NCBI GenBank assembly: GCA_029559475.1
Contig: JAKQBN010000020.1
Coordinates: 1 to 17,883, forward strand
Source: a bacterium
GTDB taxonomy: Bacteria > UBA4055
Direction: 5' to 3'
Length of the DNA: 17,883 bases
Shown: piece after piece, positions 3,037 to 13,625 of the stretch
Numbering within the stretch: the first letter of the stretch is position 1
Layout of the letters: each line of letters opens with the position of its first letter
Position numbers and translations under genes: made by a program
Notes under the pieces: generated by a model
Told to the model about the DNA's origin: nothing
The model's input: only the letters and a program-made list of their open reading frames with translations
The model's database searches: none

Positions 3037-3600
3037 TTAAATTATTCTTTCGCATTTTTTTTCTTCGATCATATAAACTTTCCCGCATGCGCATCCGCTT
3101 CTGCCGCAGGCTGAATCTAGTTTTTCTCCGCATTCGCACACCCATGCTCTGATCTTGGCCGGGTTTCCATAAACAAGCGCGTGATCGGGTACGTTTTTCG
3201 TTATTACAGAACCTGCTCCTACCATTGAGTATCTGCCGATCGTTATTCCGCCGATAATGGTCGCATTCGCTCCTATTGTGGATCCTTCTTTGACAACTGT
3301 CTTCAGCTGTACGTAATCATGGGCTTTTGACCTGGGCTTCAGATCGTTCGTAAAAACCATATCGGGTCCCAGAAACACCCTGTCCTCAATAGTTACACCG
3401 TCCCAAACGGATATTCCGTTCTTGACAGTAACGTCATTTCCAATTATTACCTCATTTTCAATAAAACAGTGCTCGCCTATATTGCATCCGGAGCCTATCT
3501 TCGCGCCTTTCATAACATGCGTGAACGCCCAGATCCTTGTATGCTTTCCCACATTTGAACTTTCGCACCAGGCACGTTCATGAACAAAATGCTCTGACAT
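3037..3600 (-). CDS. Left-handed beta-helix sugar N-acetyltransferase with C-terminal cysteine cluster
   Basis: 187 aa. Hexapeptide repeats run from about residue 13 to 150 (for example IGSGCN, IGNDVTVKNG, IGANATIIGG, IGRYSMVGAG), forming the trimeric acyl-CoA-dependent fold. The VWDGVTIED...FLGPDMVFTND stretch (65-86) is the hallmark of amino-sugar N-acetyltransferases such as WbpD/WlbB and QdtC/FdtC. Given its neighbours it probably acetylates the 3-amino group of the NDP-3-amino-3,6-dideoxyhexose. The tail has C155, C157, C165, C170 and C172, a zinc-ribbon-like cluster. Its ATG overlaps the glycosylphosphotransferase stop by one base (TAATG), so the two are coupled. A UDP-linked amino sugar substrate cannot be excluded. 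Confidence 0.88.
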   Translation of the reverse strand: MSEHFVHERAWCESSNVGKHTRIWAFTHVMKGAKIGSGCNIGEHCFIENEVIIGNDVTVKNGISVWDGVTIEDRVFLGPDMVFTNDLKPRSKAHDYVQLKTVVKEGSTIGANATIIGGITIGRYSMVGAGSVITKNVPDHALVYGNPAKIRAWVCECGEKLDSACGRSGCACGKVYMIEEKKCERII

Positions 3601-5027
3601 TATTTCCCGCCCTTTCCGAATAGAACTACCGGTATTGTTTTTAATAATATTTCAAGATCGAGCATTGTCGTCCTGTTCTCGATATAATAAAAATCAAGCA
3701 CGATCTGATCTGTGAATTTGACTTCGTCCCTTCCTTTTATCTGCCATAATCCCGTCATACCCGGAAGAACGCTGAACCTTTTCTTCTGCCAGTTCCTCAT
3801 GTGCTCATACTCGTAAGGAACATTAGGCCTGGGTCCGACCATGCTCATATCTCCAACAAGAACATTCCACAGCTGCGGAAATTCGTCTATCGAATATTTG
3901 CGCATGAATTTTCCTAAAGGAGTGATCCTCGGATCGTCAACCAGCTTCGTCGTAGCTTCATTTTTGATTATCATTTCCTTTACTTTATCTTCGTGAAGCT
4001 TCTTGCTCGTATTATGGTACATCGACCTGAATTTGAGCATATAGAATATTTTTTCATCCTTACCGACGACTTTGGCTTTGTAGAATCCCGGCCCGCTTGA
4101 AGTAGTTCTTACAGCGAGATAGATAGCCAGCCACACCGGGAAGAAAGCGGTTATGAAAAAAAGCGATCCGAATATATCAATAATCCTTTTTACGATATCA
4201 TAATATGTTCTTGCTTTAGTCGGAACAACTCTAAACGTTGAAGTGGAAGATATCTGCTCGACAGACAGGCGTTCGTTCACGATCTCGTATAAAGATGAAT
4301 CAACATGAACAGGTTTATTTATGCTTATGCAGTGATCGATAATAGCCTGCAGTTTTTCTTCATTTATTTTCTTTATGAAAATGAAAACATCGTTTACTTT
4401 GTGCTCTTTAACAACCTCGGAAAGTTTTGTGACATCGCCCAGAACCGGTATCCCGTCATACACTTTTCCCTGCTTTAATGGATCGTCATCAAGAAATCCG
4501 ACAACTTTATAATAATTCGCTTTATCCTTCAAAATCGCCGCGACTTTCTCTCTCGCTTTTTCACCCGCACCGAGAACAAGCATATTTACGCTTAGTTTGC
4601 CTTCTTTTACTAGAGTAAAATAAGCTCTCGGAATTATAATTACTCTTGTTATCAGCAGAACTCCGAAAAGTATCAGATAAGTTTCGATCACGAATGACCT
4701 GCTAAGAGTAACTTCAGGGAATTTCATAAAGAAAGCAAAATAGATGTGGAGCGTCATGCTTAGAATAAGACATTTAATGAGTACGACAATGTGCCTTGAT
4801 CTGTTAAGGAACACCTGATATCTGTACATTCCGTTGAATTTAAAGATGAAGATCATCGCAATAAGAAGGAAAGCAAAGCTCGAATAATACCTTTCGGCCA
4901 TATCGGCAAATCTGTAAGGTCTTCCGTTAATAAGCATAAGATATAATAAAACCGACGTTATGACTATGTCATGAACTGCAAATACAAGCTTATGTACCGG
5001 GATCAACCGTCTTATATACCCGAGCAA
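3600..5027 (-). CDS. Polyprenyl-phosphate glycosylphosphotransferase (WbaP/WcaJ type)
   Basis: 475 aa integral membrane enzyme that transfers a sugar-1-phosphate to undecaprenyl phosphate and so starts repeat-unit synthesis. Four N-terminal membrane segments lie near 14-33, 50-65, 80-101 and 113-133. A Rossmann-like domain follows with VLGAGEKARE (151-160). A membrane helix at about 283-305 leads into the catalytic domain: KFRSM (332-336), DDPRITPLG (364-372), catalytic Asp-Glu in SIDEFPQLWNVL (379-390), and MVGPRP (396-401). The start is TTG at 5027. An in-frame TAA lies two codons upstream, and AGGGGAGGGG (5036-5045) sits 8 bases before the TTG, a very strong ribosome binding site. The beta-helix gene ends 92 bases upstream with no clear terminator. 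Confidence 0.95.
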   Translation of the reverse strand: MLGYIRRLIPVHKLVFAVHDIVITSVLLYLMLINGRPYRFADMAERYYSSFAFLLIAMIFIFKFNGMYRYQVFLNRSRHIVVLIKCLILSMTLHIYFAFFMKFPEVTLSRSFVIETYLILFGVLLITRVIIIPRAYFTLVKEGKLSVNMLVLGAGEKAREKVAAILKDKANYYKVVGFLDDDPLKQGKVYDGIPVLGDVTKLSEVVKEHKVNDVFIFIKKINEEKLQAIIDHCISINKPVHVDSSLYEIVNERLSVEQISSTSTFRVVPTKARTYYDIVKRIIDIFGSLFFITAFFPVWLAIYLAVRTTSSGPGFYKAKVVGKDEKIFYMLKFRSMYHNTSKKLHEDKVKEMIIKNEATTKLVDDPRITPLGKFMRKYSIDEFPQLWNVLVGDMSMVGPRPNVPYEYEHMRNWQKKRFSVLPGMTGLWQIKGRDEVKFTDQIVLDFYYIENRTTMLDLEILLKTIPVVLFGKGGK

Positions 5028-5119: not shown

Positions 5120-7123
5120 CTATCTGATTCTATTTTCAATGTCGATTTTCGTTCCCCATCCTGTCCAGAACTTGATCTGCCGGAGAAACTTAAATTTATT
5201 TTTATCTATCAAATTTCTGACTTTTTTATCGACCCTGCCGCCGCATCTCATATCCTTTACATCGGAAGCATGAAAAAAGATCGCCGCGTTTTTTATCAGG
5301 CTGTCGGGTATATTATTGCAGAAAAAATCATCATTCCCAGTTAGATTCGTAACCAGATTATCCGTTAAATTCTGCCAAGTACTGAATTTAAATGAAAATT
5401 TATTTTTGCCGGCGTCAGGTATAAAAACATTATCTTTTACAAGATTATTTCCAGGCTTAACATACACTATCCCGTTTTTCTTGTTTTTATAATACAATAG
5501 CCCTTCTTTTTTATCCCATGTATATCCTTTCGGGATCGAATCGAGCTTATCCGGATCGAATTCAGGATCATTATCAGGATTTAACCGCCCGCCGTTTAAT
5601 ATCGCACCTGCGTGATTTATATGAAACTCATAATTAGCATTCTTTTCAGTTCTGTTGAACATTACGGTATCTGATCGCGAATTCTGTATATAAATACCAC
5701 CCCCGCAGTCAGTTACATAATTGCTGTCTACTCTAAAATTTAGTGATAATTCGTCAAGATAAATTCCGCTTGAATGGTTGTACGAGCCTGTTGTTCCGTC
5801 TGCATTTCCATACGCTTTTCTGACAATATTTTTCCTGATTATTTTATTTTTATCGCCTTCGATATAATGCCATGTGTATATTGCTCCGCCGTCAGCCATA
5901 ACCTGAACCGTATTTTCTACGGTGTTGCCGATAACTTTGCAGCCGCTGGAACCAAAAAATCTTATGCCTGAATAACCGGTGTTGGAAATATGATTATCCC
6001 TTATCGTATTATCTTTCCCTCTTAAATCTATTCCGCACAGGTTATTGTAACCTCTGCTTTCGCACCCGAGGGTCATACCGACTGAATCTATCGAGTTATT
6101 CGCGATTAAAATGCTGTCGCCATTTAATTTTACTCCGAAAGAACGGATGTTTTTCAACGTGTTTTTTAAAATATTGATTTTATCGCTCTTAGGATTTTTA
6201 TTAAAAATTCCGTAAACACAGTTTTTGATAACGCAGTTCAAAACCTTAATGTTTTCGGATTCCTCTATCGCAATTCCTGTTTTGCAGTTTACGAATTCGA
6301 TATTCTCAACAGTAATATTTCTTTTTTGGACTATTTTCAATCCGATATTTCTCTCACTTGCACCTGAAATGTAAATCACGCATCTCTCTACACCCGGAGA
6401 AAAGTATAGTATTCTTTTTTCATTGTCGAAATACCATTCTCCTACTTTATCAAGTGCTTCACAGCTGTTCTGAATGAAATAGCCGTAATTTTTTCTGAAA
6501 GGATCCTGCAAAGGTTCTGTCATTGTGTATCCATCGGAATCGTTTTGAAAATTTCTAACTTCATAAGACCAGTTCTGAGTTTTCGTAACCAGTTCAGCCT
6601 TCTTCCCCCAATCTGCCTTATTTGAAAAATCATAGAATTTCAGATTTGGCTGAGCAGCATCAACACTGTCGATCTTAAAAAATCCGGTAAAAGAATTTTT
6701 CTGACCTGTAACTACTGTTTCATCTGCATCGGGCTCCCTTGCCAAAGTCAGCATTTGCTCTCCGGCATAAACATTTCCTGCATTTTCAAGTTGCGGTATG
6801 TGTATTTGATAGAATTTTACACCGTTTATGATCTCGGAATCAATCCATCCTGCCGAATCAAAATCAAAATGAAAAACGCTGCCGTCAATCACAGGCTTAG
6901 GCAAATTTGTATCTCCGACTGCGCCGATATATTTAATATTGATCAATGAATCGGATGTCAGATCGTTATTTGTAAAATATCTTTCACCTCTAACATAGAA
7001 AAGGCTGTCGTTAGATATGTATCTTTTTAAAACGACAGCTTTCACCGGTGAATTAACAACATTCGTCAGATAACATCCTGTCAAAAAAATAAAAACAGTA
7101 AAATGGAGATAAGCGAATTTCAT
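5120..7123 (-). CDS. Right-handed parallel beta-helix lipoprotein, possible polysaccharide-acting enzyme
   Basis: 667 aa. The N-terminus is a lipoprotein signal: a hydrophobic stretch then FLTGC with the lipidated cysteine at C17. Residues 75-260 form a beta-rich domain with LAREP (127-131) and EWYFDNEKRILYFSP (229-243). These phrases are common in the leading part of beta-helix glycoside hydrolases, lyases and epimerases. Parallel beta-helix repeats run from about 265 to 510, with DGGAIYTWH (411-419), SGIYLDE (452-458) and GGGIYIQNS (474-482). Such proteins act on or bind polysaccharides outside the cytoplasm. Placed next to the glycosylphosphotransferase, it may trim, epimerise or cleave the glycan made here. 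No catalytic residues are assigned. There is no clear Shine-Dalgarno before the ATG at 7123. Confidence 0.85.
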   Translation of the reverse strand: MKFAYLHFTVFIFLTGCYLTNVVNSPVKAVVLKRYISNDSLFYVRGERYFTNNDLTSDSLINIKYIGAVGDTNLPKPVIDGSVFHFDFDSAGWIDSEIINGVKFYQIHIPQLENAGNVYAGEQMLTLAREPDADETVVTGQKNSFTGFFKIDSVDAAQPNLKFYDFSNKADWGKKAELVTKTQNWSYEVRNFQNDSDGYTMTEPLQDPFRKNYGYFIQNSCEALDKVGEWYFDNEKRILYFSPGVERCVIYISGASERNIGLKIVQKRNITVENIEFVNCKTGIAIEESENIKVLNCVIKNCVYGIFNKNPKSDKINILKNTLKNIRSFGVKLNGDSILIANNSIDSVGMTLGCESRGYNNLCGIDLRGKDNTIRDNHISNTGYSGIRFFGSSGCKVIGNTVENTVQVMADGGAIYTWHYIEGDKNKIIRKNIVRKAYGNADGTTGSYNHSSGIYLDELSLNFRVDSNYVTDCGGGIYIQNSRSDTVMFNRTEKNANYEFHINHAGAILNGGRLNPDNDPEFDPDKLDSIPKGYTWDKKEGLLYYKNKKNGIVYVKPGNNLVKDNVFIPDAGKNKFSFKFSTWQNLTDNLVTNLTGNDDFFCNNIPDSLIKNAAIFFHASDVKDMRCGGRVDKKVRNLIDKNKFKFLRQIKFWTGWGTKIDIENRIR

Positions 7124-7156: not shown

Positions 7157-7180
7157 AAGTAATATTTTTTAAAAATACTT
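7157..7180. repeat. AT-rich imperfect inverted repeat in the divergent intergenic region
   Basis: AAGTAATATTTTT is followed by AAAAATACTT, which pairs with it apart from a two-base bulge. It lies between the divergent genes, within the leader of the beta-helix mRNA. It could be an operator or a weak hairpin, or a by-product of AT-rich sequence. Confidence 0.25.
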
Positions 7181-7207
7181 GTTTTTATATTAGAATGAAT
7201 ATATATT
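7179..7207 (+). promoter_or_regulatory. Possible promoter for the three-gene secreted cassette
   Basis: TTGTTT (7179-7184), a 17-base spacer and TATATT (7202-7207) lie about 47 bases before the ATG at 7254. The -10 is the same as in the candidates before the antitoxin and the left-edge gene. Confidence 0.35.
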
Positions 7208-7212
7208 GTAAA
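7184..7212 (-). promoter_or_regulatory. Possible promoter for the beta-helix lipoprotein gene
   Basis: On the minus strand TTTACA (7212-7207), a 17-base spacer and TATAAA (7189-7184) precede the gene by about 60 bases. It overlaps the plus-strand promoter candidate face to face. The interval is AT-rich, so confidence is low. Confidence 0.3.
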
Positions 7213-7253
7213 AAGTGCGAATTAATTATGATTGTAATCAGGCGGAGGCAGTT

Positions 7254-8333
7254 ATGAAAAATTTTGTTTTTATTTTAATGATCATTACACTAAACCTTTT
7301 TGCTCAGCCCGGAAAAGGCGGTGTACTGACTGGAGAAAGATTCTTTAACAGAGTTGATGACGCTTGGTTAATGTATGAATATCGCTATCTTCTAAGAGAT
7401 GTTGAAGGAACTGTAACACAGAGGGTGGACTATGACGGTACAGGAGCTGTATTAAAAACATGGAACTGCACTCATACAGATACAAGTTATGTACTTCGGT
7501 ATGATTGGTATGGAAGCGGATATAAAACAAGCTGGCACGGATATTATATTTATGTTTACGATCTTGAAGACACAATATTATCCTACACTTATCACATGAT
7601 TTATTCGGATCCTAACGGTACTGAGGAATACGGCGATGGGATCAATTATACCTATTCAAACGGAAAAATAGCAATTATAGAAACATACGATGAGTATGCC
7701 TGGGGACACTATAATTTTATTAGGACTGTATTCACATATGATATTTCAGGATATCCCGAACAGGAAATTAAACAGTTTCGCAGTGACTCTGAAGATGAAT
7801 GGATCGATAAAGAAAGAACTCTTTGGACATGGGACGGTATTTTCGGTACCGGAACTAACGAAATATATAAAAATACAGTGTGGATAAATAAAGGAAAAAC
7901 TTCACGGATTATTAATGAACAGATTAAGCCGATAAGTGACCAGACTTGTTATTGGTCGTGGGGATTTTGGATCAATCAGTACGAATATATTACGGAGTAC
8001 GTGAACGAAGGCGTGATCAACAGATTGTATACAAATATTTACAACCCTGCAACAAAAGGTTACGATCTTTATAAACTACACAATTATTATTACGAAAACT
8101 TCGGTGGCATGTCAGCTCCCGGCAATCTTATCACTACTATAGCCGGCGGTCAAATTACTCTCAACTGGTATGCCGTTACCGGTTCTACAGGCTATAAAGT
8201 ATATTCTTCAGACGATCCTTTCGGCACTTTTGAAGAAGATACATCAGGTACGTTCAACGGAAATGAATGGACTGCTCCAATATCCGACAGTAAGAAGTTT
8301 TATAAAGTAACTGCTATTAGCGAGGAGAAGTAA
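7254..8333 (+). CDS. Secreted beta-strand-repeat protein with C-terminal Fn3-like module (cassette protein A)
   Basis: 359 aa. I chose the ATG at 7254 because GGAGG (7244-7248) lies 5 bases upstream and a signal peptide (MKNFVFILMIITLNLFAQ) follows directly; a GTG at 7215 would put 13 polar residues before it. The mature protein opens with GKGGVLTGERFFNR (20-33). It continues with tyrosine- and tryptophan-rich strands of YTYSNGK/WTWDG type (about 50-285), reminiscent of YD-like repeats. It ends in an Fn3-like module (287-359) with GYKVYSSDDPFGTF. It is a paralog of the gene at 10109. No sorting tail or catalytic motif is seen. The product is presumably exported to the periplasm or cell surface, perhaps as a binding or structural protein. 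Function unknown. Confidence 0.85.
   Translation: MKNFVFILMIITLNLFAQPGKGGVLTGERFFNRVDDAWLMYEYRYLLRDVEGTVTQRVDYDGTGAVLKTWNCTHTDTSYVLRYDWYGSGYKTSWHGYYIYVYDLEDTILSYTYHMIYSDPNGTEEYGDGINYTYSNGKIAIIETYDEYAWGHYNFIRTVFTYDISGYPEQEIKQFRSDSEDEWIDKERTLWTWDGIFGTGTNEIYKNTVWINKGKTSRIINEQIKPISDQTCYWSWGFWINQYEYITEYVNEGVINRLYTNIYNPATKGYDLYKLHNYYYENFGGMSAPGNLITTIAGGQITLNWYAVTGSTGYKVYSSDDPFGTFEEDTSGTFNGNEWTAPISDSKKFYKVTAISEEK
8028..8077 (+). repeat. 50-bp perfect direct repeat, copy 1 (within gene A)
   Basis: Identical to 10898-10947. Encodes YTNIYNPATKGYDLYKL plus flanking partial codons. Synonymous positions are unchanged, while the flanking coding sequence has diverged. Confidence 0.95.
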
Positions 8334-8335
8334 CC

Positions 8336-10096
8336 ATGAAAAAATTTAGCCTTCTGATTTTTATAGTAACCTGTTTATTGTTTTCTCAGATCACAATGCA
8401 AAGAATTGAGAGTCTTTCATGGAATGAACCGTATCCTGCAGGTCAGCTTGTAAGAATAAATTCAGCCGGTGATATTCTGGCCGTGAATTCAACTTACCGC
8501 ACAGTTTACAATCTTTCCAACGGATCTACCGCATGGAACTCTAATCTTACTACATCCTCGAACATTACAGAAATTTACTACTCACCTTCAGGTACCACCG
8601 CTTTTGTAGGTACCGAATCAACCGGATTATATTACTGCGCAAATACCGCGAATTACACATGGACGCAGATCCTTGTCGAAACAAAAGTATTCAGTATAGC
8701 TGTTTTACCCGATAATACTATTCTCGCAGGTACGACTGACGGTCTTTACAGATCGGTTAACGAAGGTGTTTCCTGGTCAATAACCTACGATTATCCTCTG
8801 AAGATGTTTGTTACTCCTTCAGGCGTTATATATATTGAGGAATATAATAAAGGTCTGTGTAAATCTGCCGACAACGGAGCAACTTGGGAAGAGATAAATT
8901 TCAACCTGTCGAAAGATCTTGTAATAAAAGACATTCAGGTAGCTGTGAACGGTACCGTTTTCGTTCTTGTCGATAATGACGGCGTTTACAGGCTCGACGG
9001 ATCTACATGGACCGCGAACGGATTTCAGGCATCGGTTGTAAATTCACTTCATGCCGCAAAAGATGGATATATGTACTGCAGCCGTGTCAATAAAATATAT
9101 AAGAAAACAACTGCTCAGTCTTACTGGACAGCAGTTAAAAGTACTGACGGAAATATAACTTCATTCTCAAGTAAAACAGGAAAGATCATCGCCGGACATA
9201 CCGAAGTTATGGAGATATTCCAGTCGACGGATTCGGGAGTCAACTGGACGGTAATTGGAACACCCATTTATCCCTCGATTACAGCTGTGTTCAACGAAGG
9301 AAGTAATGTCTATTCCGGAACTTCAAGCGGATTGTATGTTTCTGCAGATAGTGGAATAACATGGACGGAAAAACTTAACGACTACACGATAAACTCAATC
9401 ACTGCAGATACTTCAGGCAACATTCTTACGGCAACTTCAGGCGGTCTTTACTCATCAGCCGATCACGGTGTTACATGGAACATCGTTTCATCATGTCCGG
9501 TCTCTCAGCCTTACGGAATTTATTACAGCGCCTCAAGATATTTTGTAGGCGGTTACAACAATCTTTACAGAACAACAGATCTTTCAACATGGTACACTTC
9601 TAATCCAAGCGGTTTTAGTTATCCGTACGACATGGTAAGAACTGCTGCCGGAAGACTTTATGTTTCGTGTCCGACTTACGGAATTCATTATACAGACAAT
9701 CAGAGCACATGGACATATACGGGATACGACAACTCTCTGGCAATAGAAATATGCGCCGATGGCGATATTTTCGCGGGGCATCATAATGCCGGAGCAGGCG
9801 GCGGACCCTGGCTGAAAGTTCTCAGGTCAGGCCAGACAGAATGGGTTGATTGTTTAGATCCTGTCGGAGAAATATACGACATTCATGTTTCAACTGATAA
9901 TTTGTTACTTGCTTCATCCTTGGGGATGATCTATTATAGTCTGAACGATGGAACGAACTGGTCTGGAGTAACATCAGGATTACCATCCGGTATTGCAATA
10001 GATGCAGTATCAAGAGATTCATTAGGATTCGTTTACGCAGGAGCAGCTTCGTCGAGAGGACTGTATAAATCCACAGCTTCATTGCAAACTAAATAA
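8336..10096 (+). CDS. Secreted Asp-box beta-propeller protein (cassette protein B)
   Basis: 586 aa with a signal peptide (MKKFSLLIFIVTCLLFSQ). At least six Asp-boxes of the S-x-D/N-x-G-x-T/S-W kind are visible at about 140-147, 177-184, 297-304, 336-343, 374-381 and 535-542. Degenerate copies lie near 220-225, 413-419 and 452-459. Each is usually preceded by GLY-x-S, the pattern of BNR/sortilin/Ycf48-type propellers. The spacing suggests one or two propellers filling nearly the whole protein. No sialidase arginine triad is evident, so a binding or scaffold role is more likely than hydrolysis. The gene starts 2 bases after the stop of protein A, with GAGGAG in the 3' end of that gene as ribosome binding site, so the two are coupled. 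Confidence 0.88.
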   Translation: MKKFSLLIFIVTCLLFSQITMQRIESLSWNEPYPAGQLVRINSAGDILAVNSTYRTVYNLSNGSTAWNSNLTTSSNITEIYYSPSGTTAFVGTESTGLYYCANTANYTWTQILVETKVFSIAVLPDNTILAGTTDGLYRSVNEGVSWSITYDYPLKMFVTPSGVIYIEEYNKGLCKSADNGATWEEINFNLSKDLVIKDIQVAVNGTVFVLVDNDGVYRLDGSTWTANGFQASVVNSLHAAKDGYMYCSRVNKIYKKTTAQSYWTAVKSTDGNITSFSSKTGKIIAGHTEVMEIFQSTDSGVNWTVIGTPIYPSITAVFNEGSNVYSGTSSGLYVSADSGITWTEKLNDYTINSITADTSGNILTATSGGLYSSADHGVTWNIVSSCPVSQPYGIYYSASRYFVGGYNNLYRTTDLSTWYTSNPSGFSYPYDMVRTAAGRLYVSCPTYGIHYTDNQSTWTYTGYDNSLAIEICADGDIFAGHHNAGAGGGPWLKVLRSGQTEWVDCLDPVGEIYDIHVSTDNLLLASSLGMIYYSLNDGTNWSGVTSGLPSGIAIDAVSRDSLGFVYAGAASSRGLYKSTASLQTK

Positions 10097-10108
10097 ATTG
10101 GAATCAAA

Positions 10109-11203
10109 ATGTCAGTATTTAAAAAGCTGGTCTTGATATTTTTTGTTTTATCGGTTAAATCTTATATTTTTGCCGATACTAAAGGAGGAATTCTTACAGG
10201 AGAAAGATATTTCGACAGGATAGGATCCGCATGGCAGACAACTTTGTATCAGGATTTGGAGCTAGATTCTCTTGGTAAAATAATCAGTAGAGTTGATTAC
10301 GCATATAATAGTTCAGGCGTTTTAACCTCAACTTCAACCTATAACTGCACTTACTACGCGACATATTACACTCTAACCCGTACTTATATTTATTCAGGCT
10401 GGAACTACTGGTCAATAACTGACTGGAAATACACTTATGATCTTGATGGAAAACTGACCTCATATAATTATTCTTGTGAATGGACCGGTGATCATGATAA
10501 CGGTCTAACCGTACAGACAGATACTTATACATACGATCAAGAAAAGCTTGCCGAGTTTCACACCGAATATGATGGAAATGGGTTGGGTTACATAATTAGA
10601 ACACTCTATACTTATGATTCTAATGGCAGAATTTCTCAGGAATTAACTCAGACATCTGATGAACATAACTGGACTAACAAAGAACGAACACTCTGGACTT
10701 ATGACGGAAATGCAGGTGTCGGGATTAAAGAGATCTATAAAAATACCGTATGGATAAATAATGGAAAAACTATCCGAACCCTCAACGAACAGCTTAAACC
10801 TGTCACTGAATACAGCAGCTACTGGTCATGGGGAAACTGGATTGATCAGTACCAATATATTATGCAATATGTTAATGAAGGCGTAATAAACAGGCATTAT
10901 ACAAATATTTACAACCCTGCAACAAAAGGTTACGATCTTTATAAACTTCACAACTATTATTATGACAATTACGGTGGCATGTCCGCGCCGGGTAACCTGA
11001 CAGTAACTGTGACAGGTGATTCTCTAAAACTGAACTGGTTTGCTGTTACAGGCTCTTCAGGATATAAAGTATATTCTTCGGACGATCCTTACGACACTTT
11101 CATTGAAGATACAACCGGAACATTCAACGGCGTGGAATGGACGACTCCTGCAAGTGCAATCAGACGATTTTACAGAGTAACTGCCGTAGACAGTGATAAA
11201 TAA
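10109..11203 (+). CDS. Secreted beta-strand-repeat protein with C-terminal Fn3-like module (cassette protein C, paralog of A)
   Basis: 364 aa. The signal peptide ends near IFA/D (residues 1-22). The mature N-terminus, TKGGILTGERYFDR, matches that of the gene at 7254. The middle again has YTYDS/WTYDG strands and the end is the same Fn3-like module (KVYSSDDPYDTF), finishing FYRVTAVDSDK. Similarity to protein A is strongest in the last 160 residues and weak in the first half. A 50-bp stretch is identical in DNA. It starts 12 bases after the propeller gene with a modest GGA ribosome binding site, so it belongs to the same operon. Function unknown; it is likely exported with A and B. Confidence 0.85.
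   Translation: MSVFKKLVLIFFVLSVKSYIFADTKGGILTGERYFDRIGSAWQTTLYQDLELDSLGKIISRVDYAYNSSGVLTSTSTYNCTYYATYYTLTRTYIYSGWNYWSITDWKYTYDLDGKLTSYNYSCEWTGDHDNGLTVQTDTYTYDQEKLAEFHTEYDGNGLGYIIRTLYTYDSNGRISQELTQTSDEHNWTNKERTLWTYDGNAGVGIKEIYKNTVWINNGKTIRTLNEQLKPVTEYSSYWSWGNWIDQYQYIMQYVNEGVINRHYTNIYNPATKGYDLYKLHNYYYDNYGGMSAPGNLTVTVTGDSLKLNWFAVTGSSGYKVYSSDDPYDTFIEDTTGTFNGVEWTTPASAIRRFYRVTAVDSDK
10898..10947 (+). repeat. 50-bp perfect direct repeat, copy 2 (within gene C)
   Basis: Identical to 8028-8077. Lies at the equivalent position of the paralogous protein, just before the Fn3-like module. Confidence 0.95.
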
Positions 11204-11256: not shown

Positions 11257-11337
11257 TTAATAATTATTATATAGATTTCTTAAAACATCGCTTATATAAT
11301 GTTTGTAGCCTTTTCTTGATGCTATTTTTATCATCAT
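11257..11337 (-). CDS. 26-codon ORF overlapping the antitoxin stop, possible toxin replacement or remnant
   Basis: The ATG (11337-11335) overlaps the antitoxin TGA as ATGA. The frame encodes a basic 26-residue peptide beginning MMIKIASRKGYKHYISDV and ends at TAA (11259-11257). The position is where the toxin of a toxin-antitoxin pair should begin. However, the sequence resembles neither Doc/Fic nor MazF nor PIN toxins, and it is far too short for any of them. It could be a translated peptide, the remains of a truncated gene, or a chance frame. Confidence 0.25.
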   Translation of the reverse strand: MMIKIASRKGYKHYISDVLRNLYNNY

Positions 11338-11561
11338 TTAGCAAGTTTCTTTAAGGTTCTGCTGTGAATTTTATTTGTTTTTGCTAATGAGTCTTTCAGG
11401 ATTGACGAACTGATAGAAATTTTAAGTGGAGTTATTATTAATTTTACACCGTCAGTTGATAAATCGAGAGATGTATTCTCATCGATATGAAGTAAATCTA
11501 GGATCGGTTTATCAATTATCAGTGCAGAACTGTTTCCGTGTTTAACCAATTTTTTTATCAT
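11334..11561 (-). CDS. AbrB/MazE/SpoVT-type antitoxin, apparently without its toxin
   Basis: 75 aa. I chose the ATG at 11561 because GGAG lies 5 bases upstream and the protein then starts exactly at the AbrB domain, MIKKLVKHGNSSALIIDKPI. The frame is open further upstream but would add an unrelated hydrophobic leader that lies over the promoter. The swapped-hairpin DNA-binding domain covers about 1-48 (HGNSSALIIDKPILDLL...DGVKLIITP). The tail HSRTLKKLAK resembles the toxin-binding tail of antitoxins usually paired with Doc/Fic-type toxins, so the antitoxin looks complete. No toxin gene follows; a convergent secreted-protein gene ends 130 bases away. It may be a solitary regulator or the relic of an addiction module. 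Confidence 0.85.
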   Translation of the reverse strand: MIKKLVKHGNSSALIIDKPILDLLHIDENTSLDLSTDGVKLIITPLKISISSSILKDSLAKTNKIHSRTLKKLAK

Positions 11562-11586
11562 AATTACTCCATGATGTTTCAACTTC

Positions 11587-11594
11587 GTATATAC
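11587..11594. promoter_or_regulatory. Possible operator palindrome GTATATAC
   Basis: A perfect 8-base palindrome abuts the -10 element of the antitoxin promoter, with a related GTATGTAT in the spacer. Antitoxins of this family commonly repress their own promoter through such palindromes; binding here is inference. Confidence 0.3.
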
Positions 11595-11623
11595 AATATA
11601 GATACATACAAGGATGAAATCAA
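11595..11623 (-). promoter_or_regulatory. Promoter of the antitoxin gene
   Basis: On the minus strand TTGATT (11623-11618), a 17-base spacer and TATATT (11600-11595) end 33 bases before the ATG. The gene therefore appears to be transcribed independently of the deacetylase gene, which ends at 11662. Confidence 0.5.
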
Positions 11624-11661
11624 GAAATAAATATAAAGATACTATTAGATTATTTTGAAGT

Positions 11662-12606
11662 CTAGAATTCTTCGTTCCAGTATTCTGCAATGTCTTTCGG
11701 CAGAACGTGCCAGAGTCCGTCTTTTGAAGACAGAAACTCCAAAAATTCTTTATATTTCTCTTTATAGCCGTCGAGAAGGTAATCGGGATGAGTAATCAGC
11801 ATTATCATACCGCTGTTTTCTATCAGCCATTCGGTTTTCTTTTTCCAGATTTCGATATCGTTCCTTTTCATCATATAGAAAATGTCGTGATCCTGCGGCA
11901 GAGTGTATGGCAGTTCGATGAATTTACCCGCTCTGAACGGCCAGATCGATCCTGTACCGCCGGGGAACGGCTGATAGGGGTCGTAATCGAAACAGGAAGC
12001 GTCGTATTTTATGTCCAGTTTCTGAAGCCATAAAAGGTTCCTGTGGACCATCGGCGACCTGAATCCGGATGCTTTGTACTTTTTTATAGCTTCATTTATG
12101 TAGGGTGCTCTCGAATCGAATATCTTTTCGGAATAATATAGTTTTCCGTCATGGTTGTAGCCGTGGATGCCTATTTCGTGTCCGGCTGCGGTTATAAGAT
12201 CGATTATTCCCGGATCAATTTTATACTTGTACGGAACTATGTTCCAGCAAGATCTGAAGCCGGATTCCTGTTCGAGCACGAGGATTTCGGGAATATTGTC
12301 GAAACCTTCCTGCGTATCAACATCGTGAGTAAGCACTAGAGCAGCCTGTTTTTTATCGGGATAAATATTCCAGTCTGTTTTCTTTTCTTTTACGATATTG
12401 ACCAGTTCGTCCCAAATGAAATTCTCCCTGCAGACGACTCTTCGGCTCGCTCTGTCCTGAAGGTAATGGCGGACCGAGATCGGCATGACCGGTCTTGCGA
12501 GCTTATAATACGTCTTTTTTAAAAGCGAGAACCTGTTGTTGAATCCGTTCTCGGTAAGATACCGCCCGATCCTATCGTCATCTATATTGAACAGATTTGT
12601 TTTCAT
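11662..12606 (-). CDS. NodB-type polysaccharide deacetylase family protein
   Basis: 314 aa. The family removes N- or O-acetyl groups from glycans using a metal held by Asp-His-His. Motif 1 is LTHDVD (92-97), in the spaced HDxD form. Motif 2 is HEIGIHGYNH (143-152) with H148 and H152. GFRSP (181-185) supplies the arginine, and LITHPDY (270-276) the late histidine. There is no signal peptide or membrane helix, so it should act in the cytoplasm on a precursor or lipid-linked sugar. About 85 residues precede the NodB core. The ATG overlaps the DUF354 stop as ATGA. It is the last gene of the right-hand operon; the antitoxin promoter follows. Confidence 0.88.
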   Translation of the reverse strand: MKTNLFNIDDDRIGRYLTENGFNNRFSLLKKTYYKLARPVMPISVRHYLQDRASRRVVCRENFIWDELVNIVKEKKTDWNIYPDKKQAALVLTHDVDTQEGFDNIPEILVLEQESGFRSCWNIVPYKYKIDPGIIDLITAAGHEIGIHGYNHDGKLYYSEKIFDSRAPYINEAIKKYKASGFRSPMVHRNLLWLQKLDIKYDASCFDYDPYQPFPGGTGSIWPFRAGKFIELPYTLPQDHDIFYMMKRNDIEIWKKKTEWLIENSGMIMLITHPDYLLDGYKEKYKEFLEFLSSKDGLWHVLPKDIAEYWNEEF

Positions 12607-13625
12607 GCATGATCTTTTATAAAATTTACAATAAAATCGAAGGTGTTTTTATCGCTTTCGATATTTACATCGCCCTTCTTTTTATAAATTATCCTGCCTA
12701 TATCCTCTTTGTTTGTTATAAAAGTGAGTCTGCCCTCTTTCTCCAGAGTTTCGTCGATCTTGGGTTTTTTACCTTGAAAGATGCTGTAAACCGGAGTTTT
12801 CATAGCAGCGGCTTCCCTGTTCATTGTGCCTCCGCCGCTTATGACCAGATCGCTGAAATAGATCAGATTAAGTCCTTCTTCGACATCTTTGGGAAGAATC
12901 ACGTTCTCTCTTTCTATGAACTTTTTATATTTCTCTTTCTGGCTGTCGTAGCGCGGGATGAAAATGACTTGCAGCCTGCCGTCTGTCGAAAGTCTGTCGA
13001 AAAGATCTGAGAACAGGTCGTAGGAAACATTCGCGTTGTAATGCGACACTTCGCTCGGCGGCCTTAACAGAACGATTATCTTATTCATGTCCAGTTTGAG
13101 CCTTTCTTTCATCGAAGGATCGTTCTTATAGAAGGGCAGATAGATGCTTTCCTTAAGTTCGGGATATTCTGTAAGCTTCGCTTCGGGATATCCCATCGCT
13201 ACAAGATAGTCTTTTCCGAGATATGACGGGACGAGAAGATATTTTCCGAATTTCGTCTTTAAGAACCTTTCTGAATGCTCGTAGTCGAACATGACGACAG
13301 ACCGTATGCCTGTAAGCTTTGATGCCATTATAAGCGCCCTAGAGCCGTGGCAGACGCTGATGTCTATGTTCTTCCCTGTCGCCCAGATCGCAAGCCTGAC
13401 CGCTCTGAATATGTTCCCGAATACCTTTTTAAAAATGTTCGCTCCGGGATGACGCCCGAAAAGTTCGTACTTAATCCCTTTCAGCTTTAACAGCCCTAAT
13501 GTCTGATTGTAGTCTTTAGCCGTTACAAGAACATTAAAATCAGGTTCGAGAGCCTTGATGATGTTCTCGAATATCTGAACGTGCGGCGAGTTATCTATGT
13601 CTATCCATACCGTTTTCTTTTTCAT
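12603..13625 (-). CDS. DUF354 family protein, GT-B-fold, putative glycosyltransferase or epimerase-like
   Basis: 340 aa, the usual DUF354 length. It opens with the family signature MKKKTVWIDIDNSPHVQIF, followed by strands typical of a GT-B N-terminal domain. The C-terminal half has LVISGGGTMNREAAAMKTP, which resembles the nucleotide-sugar site of UDP-GlcNAc 2-epimerases and MurG-like transferases. The biochemical activity of DUF354 is not established to my knowledge; members recur in surface-polysaccharide clusters. No membrane segment is seen. The gene starts one base after the acyltransferase stop (TAG-G-ATG) and overlaps the deacetylase ATG, so the three are coupled and probably act on the same sugar. 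Confidence 0.85.
   Translation of the reverse strand: MKKKTVWIDIDNSPHVQIFENIIKALEPDFNVLVTAKDYNQTLGLLKLKGIKYELFGRHPGANIFKKVFGNIFRAVRLAIWATGKNIDISVCHGSRALIMASKLTGIRSVVMFDYEHSERFLKTKFGKYLLVPSYLGKDYLVAMGYPEAKLTEYPELKESIYLPFYKNDPSMKERLKLDMNKIIVLLRPPSEVSHYNANVSYDLFSDLFDRLSTDGRLQVIFIPRYDSQKEKYKKFIERENVILPKDVEEGLNLIYFSDLVISGGGTMNREAAAMKTPVYSIFQGKKPKIDETLEKEGRLTFITNKEDIGRIIYKKKGDVNIESDKNTFDFIVNFIKDHA

Follow-up and report, generated by a model that had tools for sequence, protein, structure and literature searches.

The window analysed here spans contig C41 from end to end (17,883 bases) and is part of a 2.28 Mb draft genome, G000. Its named relatives, UBA12480, UBA4055 (filed as UBP11), GLR157 and GH31, indicate that the host belongs to the phylum Candidatus Delongbacteria. 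The minus-strand genes of the window form an exopolysaccharide locus encoding an aminotransferase, a cupin, a dTDP-glucose 4,6-dehydratase-like protein, acetyltransferases and a polyprenyl glycosylphosphotransferase. The same locus also carries, again on the minus strand, genes for a beta-helix protein, a deacetylase-like protein, a DUF354 protein, a CoA-ligase-like protein and two glycosyltransferases. Opposed to these on the plus strand are three genes, here called A, B and A'. The features are as follows.

3600..5027, minus strand: polyprenyl glycosylphosphotransferase of the exopolysaccharide locus (TIGR03025 over cut-off)
5120..7123, minus strand: predicted exported right-handed beta-helix protein, divergent neighbour of A, conserved near A-B in G005, G007 and G012
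7168..7196, plus strand: weak sigma-70-like match upstream of A
7254..8333, plus strand: gene A, 359 aa, with a signal peptide, a diverged YD-like beta domain (approximately residues 22–284) and a C-terminal Fn3-like module; four other genomes that carry B also have a homologue of A
8103..8330, plus strand: C-terminal Fn3-like module of A
8336..10096, plus strand: gene B, 586 aa, with a signal peptide and a modelled double beta-propeller that bears six canonical Asp boxes; four other genomes have a homologue, which in every case directly follows A
10109..11203, plus strand: gene A' (364 aa), a paralogue of A that probably arose by duplication in the lineage of the window
10970..11200, plus strand: C-terminal Fn3-like module of A'
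12603..13625, minus strand: DUF354 protein, probably glycosyltransferase-like, which points towards A-B(-A') wherever the two occur together (four genomes)

Gene layout and the second copy of A

The initial annotation described a tight plus-strand cassette within a minus-strand polysaccharide cluster, and this layout was confirmed, with gaps of 2 bases between A and B and 12 bases between B and A'. Each of the three genes begins with a plausible signal peptide, as judged by eye from the sequence. The cassette had been taken to start at 7179; the likely start of A is instead the ATG at 7254, just upstream of which is the purine-rich sequence GGCGGAGGCAG, making 7179–7253 upstream DNA. The sequence GAGGAG precedes B. 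Sigma-70-like matches in the region number 23, against 18.4 in shuffles, and are therefore no evidence of a promoter upstream of A. Between A' and the deacetylase-like gene is a small MazE/AbrB-like frame (11334–11690; PF04014 E 0.011, below cut-off), with no evident toxin partner.

A and A' are 53% identical. The N-terminal GG[VI]LTGER motif that had been reported as common to the two is present: A has GGVLTGERFFNR and A' has GGILTGERYFDR. Both also have the KVYSSDDP Fn3-like end; as a mark specific to the cassette this end fails, there being 26 other copies in the genome, all of them C-terminal. Since it is a genome-wide C-terminal module, it is not evidence of a special pairing between A and A'.

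The second copy of A is not a fixed part of the cassette. It is absent from G005 and G007, where B is followed by a convergent DUF354 gene and by a pair of SGNH/MBOAT-type acyltransferase genes, respectively. G012 was left out of this assessment because B runs off the contig. In G010, which is of another genus, contig C455 ends within B; contig C458, when reversed, opens with the last 43 residues of a B protein, and an A-type gene comes immediately after these, with DUF354 next on the opposite strand. Joined across the contig break, these would give an A-B-A' arrangement. In the tree, A and A' of the window group together with full support, and a clade uniting the window A' with that of G010, which is a long branch, was rejected (p-AU 8.4e-6). 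Gene conversion, for which there is one identical tract of 50 bases, could mimic this rejection of orthology.

Distribution of A-B and its association with glycan genes

The comparison covers 13 draft genomes of the phylum, mutually related and all within one family. B is present in five of these (G000, G005, G007, G010 and G012), in each of which A lies directly upstream on the same strand, and among the 13 genomes B was never found away from A. The proposal that homologues of the cassette would stay together and near polysaccharide genes thus held for A and B, in five of five genomes, and not for A'. These sequence comparisons identify the conserved unit as A-B, not A-B-A'. The constant adjacency of A and B, and their place in polysaccharide loci in all five genomes, mean that they are not a scattered or random insertion. 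Because the 13 genomes are few and related, the five co-occurrences do not count as independent. A phage origin was also considered and rejected, the PHROGs matches touching only the Fn3-like part, in tail proteins; no relatives were found in viral contigs.

The N-terminal domain of A is found more widely than B, in seven of the 13 genomes at E up to 0.001, including a weak partial match in G011. In a set of 386 genomes treated as relatives, the domain has matches outside the family in only two, both of them weak, and in both cases the protein has YD-like repeats. The domain is reused in two chimeras with domains assigned by eye. One, in G004, is a LamG/GLUG/Fn3 protein encoded next to the beta-helix gene, in the place occupied by A-B elsewhere. 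The other, in G010 (L084 376–3117), combines FG-GAP repeats, Fn3, an A-type domain and a type IX tail, and so has the A domain with another kind of C-terminus.

DUF354 is present in G000, G004 (where it is broken by stops), G005, G007, G010 and G011, and the beta-helix protein in G000, G004, G005, G007 and G012. A-B occurs in five of the seven genomes that have either of these genes and in none of the six that have neither (one-sided Fisher p 0.016, uncorrected for kinship). G011 has DUF354 and the sugar transferase and lacks A-B. When G000, G005 and G007 are compared, the nearest pair is G005–G007 for A (71% identity), B (61%), DUF354 (86%) and the beta-helix protein (61%), whereas for the sugar-phosphate transferase it is G000–G005 (80%). 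A-B therefore seems to travel with the glycan-specific genes. This identity comparison, on a small sample, suggests that A-B is inherited together with them; the neighbouring genes could also be linked only by their position in a variable region.

The beta-helix protein (window 5120–7123; L041, L038, L040, L086, L085, L087) is conserved with the locus, is present in G004 and G005 in two or three copies and is possibly a polysaccharide-modifying enzyme. On G004 contig C50 (L085) the DUF354 gene that is interrupted by stop codons adjoins a second beta-helix copy. The beta-helix gene of G007 adjoins a reading frame of a mutator-type transposase (L086 4092–5006).

Domains of A and B and the Fn3-like module

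The N-terminal part of A is a diverged YD-like beta domain. It has no match in the Pfam and NCBIfam profile libraries, neither A nor A' as a whole matches NCBIfam, and no YD/RHS repeat profile of Pfam is matched, even at E up to 1, by A, A' or their homologues. The structural model of A is poor (pLDDT 55.5), with strands of about ten residues in series from 58 to 184 and an Fn3-like end. The best conserved stretches are residues 180–220 and the Fn3 end. A fold search with the model of A', which is also poor, gave no match with E under 0.001 and was discarded as evidence. No C-terminal toxin domain was found; the Fn3 module is the last domain of A, of A' and of every relative of A.

B had been described as an Asp-box propeller, and this is borne out by six S-x-[DN]-x-G-x-x-W boxes, where shuffling predicts 0.02, and by an all-beta AlphaFold2 model (mean pLDDT 81, pTM 0.60). 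The protein is modelled as a double beta-propeller. Its first 360 residues are more conserved than the rest (49–71% against 32–47% per block). The best Foldseek matches are the heparin/heparan-sulphate sensor BT4663 and its relatives, which are two-propeller ectodomains of Bacteroides sensors, with GH74 at rank 16 and PorZ (PDB 5m11) at rank 30 (TMq 0.43, rmsd 13.8, for a B model of pTM 0.60). In a second structural alignment, single seven-bladed propellers of many functions, including WD40 and lyase, score equally well; the fold alone therefore assigns B no function and does not show glycan binding. There is no glycosidase family among its Pfam matches, and its only NCBIfam match is a partial one to the propeller glycosylhydrolase model NF045728, at 92 bits against a cut-off of 175. 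In the model no more than about 10 residues follow the last strand, and no profile match to a type IX C-terminal domain (CTD) was found in B.

The Fn3-like modules of A and A' belong to a subfamily with 28 copies in G000 (loci L091–L117 and L010), in all 28 of which the domain is C-terminal and the protein ends within 42 residues after it. A single-sequence search with A', in which position was not a criterion, had already recovered most of these copies. A plausible signal sequence is present in 23 of the 24 other carriers examined, of which 19 were recognised with a simple rule and the remaining four on inspection; the sole exception, L139, is near a contig end. Carriers include C10 peptidase, FG-GAP, LamG, GLUG, nidogen-like and rhamnogalacturonan-lyase-type proteins. 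The Fn3 profile of Pfam, PF00041, matches five of 21 members at E up to 0.1, the best (E 1.4e-4) having 22.4 bits against a cut-off of 25. In G005 one predicted exported protein (9216–10382) has an Fn3-like stretch near its N-terminus, therefore the C-terminal rule may not be absolute in relatives. A C-terminal lysine or arginine was rejected as a mark of the class, occurring in 20 of 26 against five of 12 among the other proteins of the window. One of the carriers, a predicted exported protein that ends in the module (L124 165–2495), has partial similarity to the PorU sortase, at 40 bits against a cut-off of 420.

As judged by SprA, the host encodes type IX secretion: SprA_N exceeds its cut-off in 12 of the 13 genomes, G000 among them. 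The type A CTD (TIGR04183) is present over cut-off in 39 proteins of G000; none of its 41 places in the genome is on the window contig. None of the 28 Fn3 copies is followed by a type IX CTD, and there is no room for such a tail. In the open-access literature no paper was found that deals with either type IX secretion or exopolysaccharides in Delongbacteria.

Possible functions and comparison with known systems

The explanation favoured here, tentatively and at a little short of an even chance, is that A-B is a conserved exported pair that belongs functionally to a particular Delongbacteria exopolysaccharide or capsule locus and holds or organises the polysaccharide at the surface. Both proteins would be carried across the inner membrane by Sec. 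The C-terminal Fn3 module would then deliver A to the outer surface or hold it there, the double propeller of B would bind the polysaccharide, and at the cell surface the two would act on it jointly. The A-B-A' version of some lineages would come from an additional A downstream of B, perhaps with a second binding or docking specificity. The module itself may have a sorting role, to judge from its position and the kinds of protein that carry it. That it is a sorting or anchoring domain new to description, parallel to the type IX CTD, through which A brings a polysaccharide-binding B to the surface, is a speculative proposal, conceivable but somewhat doubtful.

Other explanations differ in what B does and in whether the pair touches the glycan at all. 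A-B may be surface cargo, adhesin-like or acting in cell contact, that lies by chance in the variable glycan locus, a site of gene exchange, and has no contact with the glycan. The different LamG/A-domain/GLUG protein at the same place in G004, the A-type domains in other secreted chimeras and the transposase frame beside the beta-helix gene of G007 are all consistent with this. It is set against by the presence of all five A-B pairs in this type of glycan locus and by the kinship pattern that A and B have in common with DUF354 and the beta-helix protein, and is considered doubtful, if a serious contender. In an enzymatic role, B would be a hydrolase, lyase or similar that trims or matures the polysaccharide, with A as its docking partner. 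The GH74 Asp-box two-propeller enzymes among the structural matches and the partial match to NF045728 point in this direction; that match is below the family cut-off, however, and no catalytic residues were identified, which leaves such a role unlikely.

It is very unlikely that B, like PorZ, hands surface polysaccharide to the type IX machinery for attachment to cargo, with A as cargo or adaptor. The genome does have SprA and the 39 type A CTD proteins, and PorZ, which is among the Foldseek matches, binds anionic LPS, a surface polysaccharide (PMC8545088). The propellers of B are not followed by a C-terminal domain, however, and as SprA is found in 12 of the 13 genomes and B in only five, B does not belong to the core of the secretion machinery.

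A-B is a candidate protein pair for the handling of surface polysaccharide in an uncultured phylum. The Fn3-like module is found at the C-terminus of 28 proteins of one genome and is barely recognised by the family libraries. Were it a sorting signal, it would define a second class of surface proteins recognisable from sequence in bacteria with type IX secretion.

PorZ of Porphyromonas gingivalis is, as B is predicted to be, an exported double beta-propeller in a type IX secretion host, and itself binds surface polysaccharide, whereas B has no CTD and a patchy distribution, with A as its partner and a polysaccharide locus as its setting. The ectodomains of the two-component sensors BT4663 and BT4673 have two propellers, as B does in its model, but B is free-standing, without Y_Y_Y, kinase or regulator parts. 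With the GH74 xyloglucanases and other Asp-box propellers B has the Asp boxes and the modelled two-propeller layout in common, with no family match over cut-off. A resembles the secreted YD/RHS-like repeat proteins of other phyla, having their W-x-N-x-x-R-x-x-Y-x-Y-D pattern and matching weakly by profile in two genomes from beyond the phylum, yet its repeats are diverged, it ends in an Fn3 module and it has no toxin part. The Fn3 end is comparable to the TIGR04183 CTD as a small C-terminal all-beta module on many exported proteins of one genome, although the two profiles have no similarity (hhalign probability 0.1).
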